A stretch of DNA of 64,000 nucleotides, taken from Rhodocytophaga aerolata (GTDB taxonomy: Bacteria > Bacteroidota > Bacteroidia > Cytophagales > 172606-1). A program made the translations under genes and the position numbers. This document shows, in pieces, positions 1 to 5,326 of this stretch. The stretch spans positions 1 through 64,000 of the forward strand of contig NZ_JAUKPO010000004.1 of NCBI RefSeq assembly GCF_030503435.1, in the 5' to 3' direction. The number at the start of each line of letters is the position of its first letter. Within the stretch, counting starts at the first letter, position 1. The notes below the pieces were generated by a model. The model did no database searches. It saw nothing but the letters and a program-made list of their open reading frames with translations, and had not been told where the DNA came from.

Positions 1-53
1 GGGTGGTGTGAGAGCGCTGAGGTAGGGATTTTCCCTACCTTTCGCTACTCGAT
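1..53 (+). ncRNA. 3' end of a group II intron (domain VI and 3' splice site), cut by the window edge
   Basis: The first 53 bases fold as a group II domain VI. GAG 10-12 pairs with CTC 48-50 and AGCG 13-16 pairs with CGCT 43-46, leaving A47 bulged exactly between them. A 9-bp stem, 20-28 with 32-40, is closed by TTT. The bulged A lies 7 nt from the 3' end, where the branch-point adenosine sits in group II introns, and the sequence ends CTACTCGAT, a typical bacterial group II terminus. Domain V and the expected intron-encoded reverse transcriptase would lie left of the window. The class cannot be decided from this piece. Confidence 0.8.
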
Positions 54-62
54 TAGTGACCG
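54..62. other. 3' exon of the intron: half of an attC-like core site
   Basis: Directly after the intron end, the plus strand reads TAGTGACC. On the minus strand this is GGTCACTA, just past the stop of the SUKH-like gene. It is the exact complement of the TTAGTGACC half-site at the other end of that cassette (797-805), as expected for the two ends of one integron cassette. The intron therefore appears to interrupt the attC that follows the gene, in the orientation opposite to the cassette gene. The other half of this attC is outside the window. Confidence 0.55.
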
Positions 63-68
63 TACTTT

Positions 69-788
69 CTATTTGTGTTCCTGTATTTGATACCACCAAA
101 AGCTTTTTTCTTTAATACTTTGTAGGTCTACTGCCGCTAATTCTTCTGCAAGCTTGGCTAAGGCGTCTGCTGACGGGGTGATTTCTACAAAAGACTCTCC
201 ATTGTGCTCAGCTCTGATTCTGCTCACAAAGTTTCGGTACACGAGCAGGCACTGGGCTAACTGGTGAATACTCGAGTTCATAAACATGACAGGAACGAAT
301 TGGGGATGGTAGTCCTGCTCCTCTTCGTTATCTACTGTGTGAATATGATCACTGCTTAGGATTATAACCTGGTCTTGATTCTTGGTATCAATACAGATCA
401 CATCTCCTCCCCCTTCGCTCCCAATCACGTAGTAAGATGCAAAGTCCTCTCCTTGCAGTTTATAGTACTGTTTTACGTTCTGCAGTACCGGGCTGTATAA
501 TTTTTCATTAAAGCTAAGAAACGGTGGGGCCGAAGCAGGTAAGCCTGCTTCCTTCAAAAACTGCTTGGTTGGCAAGCCGAAGAAAGAAGCCTGCAATTCT
601 TCTGCAGTATAGGACACTAAACTGTCCTTGGGCTCAATCAACCATTGTTTTCTAAACTCTACTGGTGTCAACATTGCTTTCTTTGGGTCAGTTATCACTT
701 CTATGCTTTGCTTGTGATCTCGACTCCTTTGGTTACAGGCAGTTGCTCCCAATAGAATAGCAAGCAAGATGCTTAATCTGTTTTTCAT
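69..788 (-). CDS. SUKH-4-like lipoprotein (probable immunity-type protein) in a cassette
   Basis: A 239-residue protein with a lipoprotein signal peptide: hydrophobic residues to about 17, then a lipobox ending at Cys18. The body resembles the SUKH-4/SMI1-KNR4 fold. It has an F-LP...FL-E-GLP stretch near 70-85, then YYVIGSEGGGDVICID near 119-135, which matches the Gly-rich strand-turn of the family, and a late N-SS-HQ-AQCLLVY helix. SUKH proteins commonly neutralise secreted polymorphic toxins. Here no toxin is visible and the protein is predicted to be membrane anchored, so an immunity role is inference. It lies between two attC-like sites and reads away from the tRNA-Arg side, as a gene cassette would. 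The start is the only Met that gives a complete signal peptide. Confidence 0.6.
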   Translation of the reverse strand: MKNRLSILLAILLGATACNQRSRDHKQSIEVITDPKKAMLTPVEFRKQWLIEPKDSLVSYTAEELQASFFGLPTKQFLKEAGLPASAPPFLSFNEKLYSPVLQNVKQYYKLQGEDFASYYVIGSEGGGDVICIDTKNQDQVIILSSDHIHTVDNEEEQDYHPQFVPVMFMNSSIHQLAQCLLVYRNFVSRIRAEHNGESFVEITPSADALAKLAEELAAVDLQSIKEKSFWWYQIQEHK

Positions 789-796
789 GTTCCTAT

Positions 797-892
797 GGTC
801 ACTAACGTATCAAGTGCAGCCGTCCAACCGTGGCCTCATGCGTTTGCATTGCGGGTTGGCGGCCCGGCGGCCGGCTGAACGGTGTTGGGCGC
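797..892 (-). other. attC-like recombination site between two cassettes
   Basis: A 96-bp imperfect palindrome. On the minus strand it opens with GCGCCCAAC (consensus RYYYAAC core) and closes with CGTTAGTGACC (close to GTTRRRY). Nested arms CAGCCG 817-822 / CGGCTG 872-877 and CCAACC 824-829 / GGTTGG 854-859 are separated by a variable loop, the geometry of an integron attC. It fills almost the whole gap between the flanking minus-strand genes. The GC content of the palindrome is far above that of the neighbouring genes. Confidence 0.6.
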
Positions 893-924: not shown

Positions 925-1467
925 CTAAAAGTGTCTTAAAATATCTTCTATCCGATTATAGAAATAATCTTTCCACGATTTATTTTCTTCAATTACTACC
1001 GCTCTGATGCATACACCACCTAGCTTTCCTTGCAGTGGATTTCCAATCAAGTCATCAGTATGAACAGGTTTTGTGATTTCAGTAGGTGTCGGTAGCACAA
1101 TAGATTTAGGCGTTATGGGAGTTATCTCTATTTTCTGCTTGATTTTTAGTGTATCTACTGTCTGGGCTTTGCTACTGAAACTCATCAAAAAACCTATCAT
1201 GCTAGCTGCTATACCGGATATCCAAAATCTATTACTTAGCTTTTTATGAGAAGTTATTACTCTGTTTGTTTGATTTGCATTGAAGTTGCCACAAACTTTT
1301 TCCGGTTGTCGTTTGAAATAGTTATACAGTTCCCTATCTGACATCTTAGTGAAGTCTATTACAATCTTATCACAGGCACCACAAAATCTACCTTCATTTT
1401 GTGGTGTCAAATTTTCCCATTTAAGGGAACAAGGTTCTGTTACAACTATTTCGAATTCATTTTTCAT
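925..1467 (-). CDS. Cys-rich N-terminal/single-TM protein of unknown function, second cassette gene
   Basis: A 180-residue protein read from the ATG at 1467. A start 30 nt upstream is possible but would extend into the attC-like repeat. The N-terminal ~60 residues carry PCSLKWENLTP, then FCGACDK, then VIDFTKMSD and a later CGNF: four conserved-looking cysteines in a pattern seen in many short Bacteroidota proteins of unknown role, perhaps metal binding. One membrane helix (about residues 83-100) follows, then a Pro/Thr-rich periplasmic tail containing a short NPLQGKLGGVCIRA plug-like stretch. Function is not recognised. It is flanked by attC-like palindromes and reads in the same direction as the neighbouring cassette gene. 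Confidence 0.6.
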   Translation of the reverse strand: MKNEFEIVVTEPCSLKWENLTPQNEGRFCGACDKIVIDFTKMSDRELYNYFKRQPEKVCGNFNANQTNRVITSHKKLSNRFWISGIAASMIGFLMSFSSKAQTVDTLKIKQKIEITPITPKSIVLPTPTEITKPVHTDDLIGNPLQGKLGGVCIRAVVIEENKSWKDYFYNRIEDILRHF

Positions 1468-1482
1468 ATTTTGTTCTCGGTT

Positions 1483-1567
1483 GCGCCTAATGAACATGAC
1501 TATACGGCGGCGAGGCTCGAAGCATCAGCCTTGCGCTGTAGCGTCCCGCTGAACGAAATAGTTAGTG
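1483..1567 (-). other. attC-like recombination site upstream of the second cassette
   Basis: On the minus strand this 85-bp element opens with CACTAAC and closes with TTAGGCGC. The closing half-site is complementary, with one exception, to GCGCCCAA at the far end of the next cassette (885-892), which is how the two ends of one cassette are related. An internal hairpin pairs AGGCT with AGCCT around 1513-1531. No gene follows in the next 260 bp of the minus strand upstream, so this may be the outer boundary of the array. Confidence 0.5.
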
Positions 1568-1794
1568 TGCTGGTTGCACAACACTACTAATACTAAAAAG
1601 TTGTTAATGGTAAATCAACAAGAGATTGAAAGGATAGGAACTTTAGAAAGCTAAGTTGTTTGATAATGCTTATGGAGAAAAAATGACCGTTTTTAAAAGT
1701 TAATAGCGAAACGCTCAAAAACACCCCTTTTAGATTAAAAAAATCATCTCCAAAAAATCTCAGTTTATTGGATACAGCAAAATTTAGAAAACAG
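1568..1794. other. AT-rich intergenic stretch, no gene seen
   Basis: Between the last attC-like site and the tRNA terminator. No open frame of useful length, no integrase and no attI-like site is visible. It could be a decayed cassette. Confidence 0.4.
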
Positions 1795-1832: not shown

Positions 1833-1906
1833 TGATTCCGTTTGGATTCGAACCAAAGACCTACTGCTTAGAAGGCAGTTGCTCTATCCAGCTGAGCTAC
1901 GGAACC
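1833..1906 (-). tRNA. tRNA-Arg (anticodon TCT)
   Basis: Full cloverleaf on the minus strand. Acceptor GGTTCCG pairs with CGGAATC, with one G-U. The D arm contains AGCTCAGCTGGATAGAGCA. The anticodon loop CTTCTAA gives TCT, reading AGA. The T arm is built on GGTTCGAATCC, and the discriminator is A. CCA is not encoded. Confidence 0.93.
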
Positions 1907-3334: not shown

Positions 3335-4096
3335 ATGAATTTGCTGCAGAAACTATCTTCTACTCTCTTCATTGGCCTGTTAGTATTTTTGTCGTCTTGT
3401 TCCAAAGATGATAGCTCACCTGCCACTGGCGAATTAGTACTCACCTTTTTGCATGAAGTAAATGGGCAACCTCTCGTGTTAAATGAACAAGCATTTACCA
3501 ATGCCGCAGGCAATGTATACCGGGTTGAAAAACTGAAGTATTATGTAAGCAATATCGAATTAACTAAAACGGATGGATCGGCTGTAAAAATAGAGGATGG
3601 ATATTTTCTGATTGAGCAAACCGGCCTGGACTCCCGTCTGAGTATCTCTCTACCCAATATTCCATCGGCAACCTATTCTTCCCTTTCTTTTGCTATTGGT
3701 GTGGACAGTGCCCGAAATTTTTCTACGGAAATGGTGGGTGACCTTAATCCAAATAATGACATGGCCTGGAACTGGGTATCTGGCTACAAATTTTTTATGC
3801 TGGAAGGAAAATTCACTACCCCAACACAGGCCACCGGAGCCATTGTTTATCATGTTGGCGGCAACAGTTCACTACGCAGGGTTAGTTTATCTGCTCCCGC
3901 AGGAGAAATCCGGGTGAATGGCAATCAATTAACAGAACTGGGCATTGGCGCGGATGTTAACCGCTTGTTTGATACGCAATACACGATAGACTTGAATAAT
4001 TTGAATGCAGTAATGCAACCGGGCGATGACGCCAACCAAATTGCTGATAACTATGCAGCGGGTATGTTCAGCCTTCATCATGTCCATATCAAGTAG
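3335..4096 (+). CDS. MbnP-family copper-associated lipoprotein
   Basis: A 253-residue lipoprotein (lipobox ending at Cys22). It has the MbnP signature: an opening TFLHEVNGQPLVL strand, YRVEKLKYYVSNIELT, then FAIGVDSARN and GDLNPNNDMAWNW followed by GYKFFMLEG, and a closing SLHHVHIK. In characterised methanotrophs MbnP binds copper through a kynurenine made from tryptophan by MbnH. Two tryptophans sit in the AWNWVSG segment here, but which one, if any, is modified cannot be seen. Adjacency to a dihaem peroxidase with no methanobactin precursor nearby suggests a periplasmic copper-handling or redox pair independent of methanobactin. Confidence 0.8.
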   Translation: MNLLQKLSSTLFIGLLVFLSSCSKDDSSPATGELVLTFLHEVNGQPLVLNEQAFTNAAGNVYRVEKLKYYVSNIELTKTDGSAVKIEDGYFLIEQTGLDSRLSISLPNIPSATYSSLSFAIGVDSARNFSTEMVGDLNPNNDMAWNWVSGYKFFMLEGKFTTPTQATGAIVYHVGGNSSLRRVSLSAPAGEIRVNGNQLTELGIGADVNRLFDTQYTIDLNNLNAVMQPGDDANQIADNYAAGMFSLHHVHIK

Positions 4097-4222: not shown

Positions 4223-5326
4223 ATGAAAGCAGTTTCTGTAGGTAGAATCAACAGTTTGTTATTTTTTGGTTTCCTTATTTTCACCGCCCTCTATTTTGCC
4301 CGTTCATTTCTTGTCCCTTTCTCTTTAGCCATTATCTTAGCTATGCTTATGTTGCCTGTCTGCCAGAAGCTGGAGCAGTGGCATTTGCCCAGAGGTTTGG
4401 CAATTGTGCTTTGTATCCTGCTCATTCTGCTGTTTATTGCAGGTATGTTTGGTATTATTGCCGGGCAGTTTGCTGGTTTGCAGGAAGACTTGCCTAAAAT
4501 TCAGACGGAGGTGCAAACCCAGCTGGACAAATTTCAGCAATGGGTACAGCAGCAACTGAAAATACCCCCACAGGAGCAGGAAACGATGCTTAAAGAGAAT
4601 TTATCTTCCGGAAAAGGTGGCGGCGCAGGGGGCATAGCCAAAAGTATTTTATCGGGTACTATAGGTGGCCTTACTACACTGGTACTCATCCTTGCCTATT
4701 TTTTCTTCTTTCTGTATTACCGGGAGAAGTATGAAGTATTTTTTTTAAAGATCAGAGGGGAAAACCATACGCCAGAAGTGAAAGAAGTAATGGGCAAGAT
4801 ACAGAAAGTGGCCGTCAAATATATAGGCGGACGGTTTCTGGCCATTTTGATTCTGGCCACACTCAACTCGGTGGGCTTATTAATTGTCGGGGCCAAAAAT
4901 GCCATTCTCTTAGGTATTTTAACCGCATTGTTCACCTTTGTCCCCTACGTTGGCACCCTGGTAGGTGGTGCTTTTGCAGCTGGTACCGTGCTTATTACGC
5001 AGTCTGCCAGTTCAGCCTTAACGCTGATTGGAATACTTGCCTTAATTCAGATGCTGGACGAATACCTGATAGAGCCCTATATTGTCGGAGGGAATGTTGC
5101 GTTAAGTCCATTAGCTGTCATTGTTGCCTTAGTAATTGGCGGTCTGTTGTGGGGCATACCTGGCATGATATTGTTTATCCCTTTTCTGGGAATTGCAAAA
5201 ATCATCTTTGATCATGTTCCTTCTCTTCACCCGTATGGGTATCTGGTTGGCATGAATGAAGAATCTTCCGGCTCTTCTCCCCTGAAGAAAATTAAAGGGT
5301 GGTTCGGAAAAAAAGAGGATGCTTAA
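4223..5326 (+). CDS. AI-2E family transporter/permease
   Basis: A 367-residue inner-membrane protein with the layout of the AI-2E (PerM/YdiK/TqsA) family: two N-terminal helices, a soluble amphipathic region at about 80-145 rich in Gln and Lys, then a block of C-terminal helices. Family landmarks include FTFVPYVGTLVGG and DEYLIEPYIVGGNVALSPLAVI. Members have been linked to AI-2 export, Na+/H+ exchange or small-molecule efflux, so the substrate is not assigned. A charged Ser/Lys-rich tail ends the protein. It converges with the hydroxylase gene with only 10 bp between stops. Confidence 0.85.
   Translation: MKAVSVGRINSLLFFGFLIFTALYFARSFLVPFSLAIILAMLMLPVCQKLEQWHLPRGLAIVLCILLILLFIAGMFGIIAGQFAGLQEDLPKIQTEVQTQLDKFQQWVQQQLKIPPQEQETMLKENLSSGKGGGAGGIAKSILSGTIGGLTTLVLILAYFFFFLYYREKYEVFFLKIRGENHTPEVKEVMGKIQKVAVKYIGGRFLAILILATLNSVGLLIVGAKNAILLGILTALFTFVPYVGTLVGGAFAAGTVLITQSASSALTLIGILALIQMLDEYLIEPYIVGGNVALSPLAVIVALVIGGLLWGIPGMILFIPFLGIAKIIFDHVPSLHPYGYLVGMNEESSGSSPLKKIKGWFGKKEDA

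Follow-up and report, generated by a model that had tools for sequence, protein, structure and literature searches.

Group IIC introns of the attC-targeting type (IIC-attC) enter the attC bottom strand at its R'' site, in most cases at TTGT/T (the slash marking the cut) and in the orientation opposite to the cassettes; according to the accessible text of PMC7923331, they do so also in CALINs, clusters of attC sites without an integron integrase. One example, in the available parts of PMC7923331 and PMC8876359, is S.ma.I2 from the integrons of Serratia marcescens. Other classes of group II intron likewise occur in cassette arrays, the cases given in the accessible text of PMC7923331 being IIB. 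Bacteroidota are named among the phyla with integrons in the part of PMC8618304 available to us, and for Bacteroidetes IntegronFinder 2.0 recorded one complete integron, that of Salinibacter ruber, as stated in the accessible sections of PMC9024848. A sequence-only reading of the locus described below had remarked that introns of this kind are known mainly from Proteobacteria, which agrees with these sources in their available parts: they give Proteobacteria plus a few other lineages, and few Bacteroidota integrons. We found no report of IIC-attC introns in Bacteroidota in the literature searched, a search with subscription papers mostly outside its scope.

The stretch of DNA analyzed here (the window) covers 64,000 nucleotides from Rhodocytophaga aerolata and starts at the first base of contig C147 of the draft genome (G000). 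We propose, with a probability of about 0.9, that its first 53 bases are the 3' end of an attC-targeting group IIC intron, lying in the attC bottom strand of a cassette for a SUKH-4-like protein, opposite to the gene, in an array with no detectable integrase. The insertion point is most likely GGTGT/TAGTGACC. The features of the locus are as follows:

1..53, plus strand: 3' end of the group IIC intron, made up of the last bases of domain V and domain VI, with the terminus CTACTCGAT
47..47, plus strand: bulged adenosine of domain VI, from the minimum-energy fold
54..62, plus strand: 3' exon, the remainder of the R'' core of the attC bottom strand, TAGTGACC, from complementarity to 797-804
69..788, minus strand: cassette gene for a 239-aa SUKH-4 immunity-like protein (open reading frame; Pfam PF14435, E 2.6e-13)
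800..890, plus strand: intact attC between the first two cassettes, its bottom strand on the plus strand (attC model R1, 40.4 bits, E 6.2e-7)
925..1497, minus strand: second cassette gene, 190 aa (open reading frame), with no Pfam match at E 0.01
1485..1573, plus strand: attC closing the array on the right (attC model R1, 31.8 bits, E 5.4e-5)
1833..1906, minus strand: tRNA gene adjoining the array edge, given for context (Rfam RF00005, 70.1 bits)

The folding energy of bases 1-53 is -25.9 kcal/mol compared to a mean of -14.3 for shuffled sequences (z -4.5), a value equalled by none of 200 shuffles. In the minimum-energy structure, bases 43-46 pair with 13-16 and bases 48-51 with 9-12, leaving A47 bulged; from what holds for group II introns in general, A47 would be the branch-point adenosine. 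A covariance model of domain VI, built from 11 sibling and relative sequences with the window excluded, matched exactly bases 1-53 (44.5 bits, E 1.4e-8) and gave no second match in the 64-kb window at E values up to 10. Domain VI ends here in CGAT, and fold and model together show the AY 3' end and the bulged-A helix of an IIC-attC domain VI, consistent with the earlier claim of a group II intron 3' end with a bulged adenosine. Domain V is represented in the window by its last few bases only and the 5' half of the intron by no base at all, while domain V is complete in the siblings and relatives described below. At gathering thresholds, Rfam listed three tRNAs in the window and nothing else; its intron families rest on domain V, which is cut off in the window. 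A search of viral contigs with an exact 30-base domain VI pattern yielded 0 matches.

The splice junction falls at 53/54, with a T as the IBS3 base. The bases that follow (TAGTGACC, 54-61) are the exact reverse complement of GGTCACTA (797-804) at the other end of the same cassette, precisely as had been read from the letters. Since a circular cassette joins its two ends, an attC cut at R'' predicts this complementarity. As a control, we scored cassette-end agreement in 59 of the 69 pairs of adjacent attC sites on seven stretches, omitting ten that were more than 1600 bases apart or in which the motif was absent. The mean agreement was 8.15 of 9 bases vs. 4.70 when the pairs were shuffled (a mean of 5.2 at most in any shuffle), a difference that flatters the true pairs because the best motif placement was chosen for them only; 34 pairs agreed at 9/9 and 13 at 8/9. 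The only window pair within this control was the second cassette (8/9), the intron-split cassette being compared by eye. Also by eye, the far cassette end matched over 7-8 bases in all five attC-seated 3' ends that have it in view (the window, C166, C149, G001 C25 and G001 C7).

The intron reads rightwards and both cassette genes leftwards, which places the intron in the attC bottom strand. The 3' side of this R'' seating, on the bottom strand and opposite to the cassette genes, is read in the window itself, and the 5' side in two candidate contigs only (C189 and C198, see below). Orientation, R'' position, 3' end and the cut before T fit the pattern given in the accessible text of PMC7923331, as expected if the intron entered the bottom strand against the gene, as first suggested.

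The attC model R1 was trained on 19 sites from contigs C166 and C149 and, beyond 800-890 and 1485-1573, gave no further match in the window at E values up to 1. Across the family of genomes to which this one belongs, attC matches numbered at least 138 in G000, 82 in G001, 65 in G002, 14 in G003, 66 in G004 (same genus, single contig) and one each in G005 and G006, all of these being lower bounds because 150 candidates were scored per genome (150 of 1181 in G000). None of eight family genomes had an integron integrase (TIGR02249) over the cut-off, G000 being a draft of 202 contigs and G004 a single contig, and the arrays are therefore of CALIN type. The best G000 match to TIGR02249 has 17 residues in place of about 60 model positions, in what we take to be the region holding the integron-specific part. 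An ordinary integron integrase in G000 was rejected, there being no match over the cut-off. The window, with two attC sites and no integrase over the cut-off, agrees with the definition of a CALIN (two or more attC, no integrase). Thus, of the integron attC-like seat originally claimed, the attC half-site was recovered, whereas the integron gives way to a CALIN-type array. The arrays resemble CALINs as characterized in the available text of PMC9024848, and differ from typical ones in their Bacteroidota host and in size: the fullest stretches, the 12-kb L027 and the 19-kb L101, hold 17 matches each vs. an average of almost 6 attC per CALIN in that text.

In G004, two large attC clusters are bordered on the right by tyrosine recombinases (L101:15132-16922 and L103:6618-9167), one of which is seemingly split by a transposase gene, as judged by eye. 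These recombinases were considered as an integrase of the arrays and dropped, the same kind of gene being present in G000 C183 and G001 C1 with no attC match nearby. A tyrosine recombinase followed by a transposase gene, which we presume to be IS91-like from its appearance, is found at L020:1270-3507 (G000 C116) and at L103:3622-5756 (G004). An attC-like match (26.8 bits) lies just before the pair in L020, and close recombinase matches are present at nine places in G004. In C189, the same stretch (L030:1-57 and 3423-3479, 56/57 bases) leads into two different attC sites.

Three introns of class C in G000 carry a reverse transcriptase; they lie on contigs C166, C128 and C149, and their proteins are 93-94% identical. 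The C166 enzyme matches TIGR04416 at 364.6 bits, and its best solved relatives are 7uim (E 2.4e-95), presumably a IIC intron complex, and the GsI-IIC reverse transcriptase 6ar1 (6.6e-95), with LtrA far behind at 2.9e-39. Relatives of this enzyme at E 1e-80 or better were present in 15 of 395 sampled genomes of the phylum, the window's own included, most of the 15 being counted by protein match and not by attC. Named relatives of the reverse transcriptase also assign the host to Bacteroidota, as does a sigma factor encoded in the window: the best 8 of its 386 plasmid matches (46-52% identity) all come from genera of this phylum. The C166 and C149 siblings sit in attC bottom strands at GT/T. The C128 sibling lies after a terminator-like hairpin and before a run of T, in the manner of the IIC introns found after transcription terminators in the available text of PMC4424553, and differs in this from the attC-seated window copy.

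The domain VI of these three siblings differs from that of the window, and the closest one found belongs to a group IIC intron on G002 C73 (L041:5417-6204), of 786 bases, with no reverse transcriptase frame and seated in an attC-like site. Its end is 94% identical to window bases 1-53 over 52 bases, and 47/49 over bases 5-53. The same family includes G001 C25, with 45/49 domain VI bases identical to the window's, a domain V, a reverse transcriptase frame containing a stop, and attC sites on both sides. A third relative, on G001 C7, retains only the 3' half of the intron, the longest stop-free stretch before its domain VI being 68 codons. Half introns are frequent in this family, with 5' parts in G000 C153 and G004 in addition to the 3' part in G001 C7.

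Several structural features of these introns were noted in passing. At the tip of domain V, where C166 shows a short loop, the C128 and C149 siblings share one and the same insert of some 40 bases (L008:1911-1950 and L009:1911-1950), made up of two hairpins with the core GAGCACGCGAGTGCGA. The G002 C73 intron, whose domain V region appears by eye to contain a partial tandem repeat, has a similar element in an upstream loop (L041:5589), and a variant, also by eye, lies in an upstream loop of G001 C8 (L076). In L034, a metagenome-derived Bacteroidetes intron, the palindrome CCTGCCTGCCGGCAGGCAGG lies within the 5' strand of domain V (about 5284-5303, by eye) and again upstream of the reverse transcriptase at 3818-3837. 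Genome G110 (L104, L105) has four class C introns of 1855 bases each with zero differences, three of them within about 6.5 kb; all four are cut at GT/T, and one follows a strong short hairpin resembling a small attC. Lastly, domain V matches that do not belong to the IIC siblings lie between attC sites in C189 (L030:2668 region) and C187 (L029:3758-3835), with RF00029 scores of 51.8 and 43.8 bits. These elements on array contigs are separate from the window's and recall the other-class introns of cassette arrays in the available text of PMC7923331.

Among the intron 5' ends of this family in G000, G001, G002 and G004 (n = 12), eight overlap or abut an attC match: C166, C149, C189, C198, C4, G001 C25, G004 and, weakly (E 0.012), G002 C73. 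The other four (C153, C128, C172 and G001 C8) had no attC match at E 0.1; C153 has a hairpin by eye, C128 follows its terminator-like hairpin and C172 is degenerate. A T directly follows all 12 intron 3' ends (a thirteenth entry, L026 on the minus strand, being a false pattern match). The candidate EBS1 of C149, ACACC, faces the exon GGTGT and that of C166, ACATC, faces AATGT, both fitting the expected pairing, which is imperfect in C153, C128 and G001 C25. Beside related introns outside the family (named Bacteroidota records L032-L037; genomes G110, G165, G280, G303 and G362, with stretches L104-L109) the attC model gave no match at E 0.1, a null result that says little either way since the model was trained on the window's family alone. 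Seating in attC is accordingly shown within this family only.

The intron body is missing from the window because the latter begins at base 1 of its contig; the G000 contigs yielded neither the body of this copy nor its domain V or reverse transcriptase. In two other contigs of this genome, C189 and C198, an attC site overlaps the contig end (model matches of 41.3 and 68.5 bits, respectively) and runs into 50 bases from the start of a group IIC intron, which begins GTGTGCCCGGCATGGCAC. Their common tail is exactly 55 bases long, GGTGT plus the 50 intron bases, and the two sequences differ before that. The start of the window, 53 intron bases plus TA, comes to the same 55. The intron start at C189 and C198 resembles those of C153, G001 C25 and G002 C73, the last two of which have a domain VI of the window's type, and we infer that these 5' ends and the 3' end in the window belong to one intron. 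The ends of C147, C189 and C198 would all be accounted for if the assembler had used words of about 55 bases and collapsed an identical repeat. Most simply, then, this is an IIC-attC intron repeated without differences, and the assembler left out its body; the genome probably holds at least two such copies, and these would have broken the assembly at the left end of the window. Only one contig of G000 has a 3' end of the window's type vs. two with the 5' end. Both candidate 5' exons read GGTGT, giving GTGT/T, a partial match to TTGT/T, with the T of IBS3 present in the window.

Within this main reading, the intron may be complete and yet lack a reverse transcriptase of its own, being moved in trans by the C166, C128 or C149 enzymes. 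We consider this sub-case a serious possibility, at somewhat less than even odds. The closest domain VI is that of the 786-base G002 C73 intron, no fourth class C reverse transcriptase was found in the G000 assembly, and the window's first bases, GGGTGGTGTGAGAG, are those ending domain V in the G001 C7 fragment, where the copies bearing a reverse transcriptase have CAGTGGTG. On the other hand, G001 C25 has the same type of domain VI and does carry a reverse transcriptase frame, albeit with a stop, and a collapsed repeat would lose the reverse transcriptase together with the rest of the body.

Alternatively, since G001 C7 keeps only a 3' half, the copy in the window may be a fragment: a dead 3' remnant, left in the same attC by 5' truncation or recombination. 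The frequency of half introns in the family and the lack of an intron body in the assembly agree with this idea, which we nevertheless regard as improbable, since the first 55 bases of C147 fit the end of a shared repeat, equal in length to the C189/C198 tail, and a full-length repeat explains them better. A chance hairpin beside an attC half-site, with no intron at all, would be conceivable from 53 visible bases, but is refuted by the model match (E 1.4e-8), the close likeness to the end of a full intron elsewhere (94% identical over 52 bases) and the junction at the R'' core.

If the main reading of an attC-seated IIC intron is correct, a full-length copy would have its 5' end, GTGTGCCC, next to the attC half-site. 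From established knowledge of group IIC introns, the intron RNA, together with a class C reverse transcriptase of its own or of a sibling, would recognize the attC bottom strand in its folded, DNA-hairpin form. EBS1 would pair with the GTGT ahead of the cut, the intron would reverse-splice at GT/T, and the reverse transcriptase would copy it from a replication primer. Insertion would detach the R'' core from the remaining attC, and the cassette should as a result be locked in place at the DNA level.

The window intron is thus a known kind of element in a host phylum, Bacteroidota, hardly described for such introns, and it is seated in arrays with no recognized integrase. As far as the accessible portions of PMC7923331 and PMC8876359 go, it shares with IIC-attC introns such as S.ma.I2 its domain VI end, its seat in the R'' bottom strand, its orientation against the cassette, the T of its 3' exon and, in the sibling copies, a class C reverse transcriptase. 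By the same sources, it is unlike them in its Bacteroidota host, its arrays without a recognized integrase and its likely cut at GTGT/T vs. the TTGT/T consensus, and some members of its family are unlike them in lacking a reverse transcriptase or having extra hairpins.

A broader and more speculative proposal, which we think rather doubtful at present, is that these introns form a Bacteroidota branch of attC-targeting IIC introns in integrase-free arrays, made up of autonomous copies, copies without reverse transcriptase moved in trans (the window's among these) and half copies, with introns and recombination between their copies, instead of integrase, now a main force reshaping the arrays. 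On a practical level, gaps at such introns in draft assemblies split cassette arrays and conceal the introns. Globally, this Bacteroidota family combines more than 100 attC sites in one genome with several attC-seated introns and no recognized integrase, and such arrays are a natural place to ask what moves cassettes without IntI, and whether introns lock cassettes or rearrange them.
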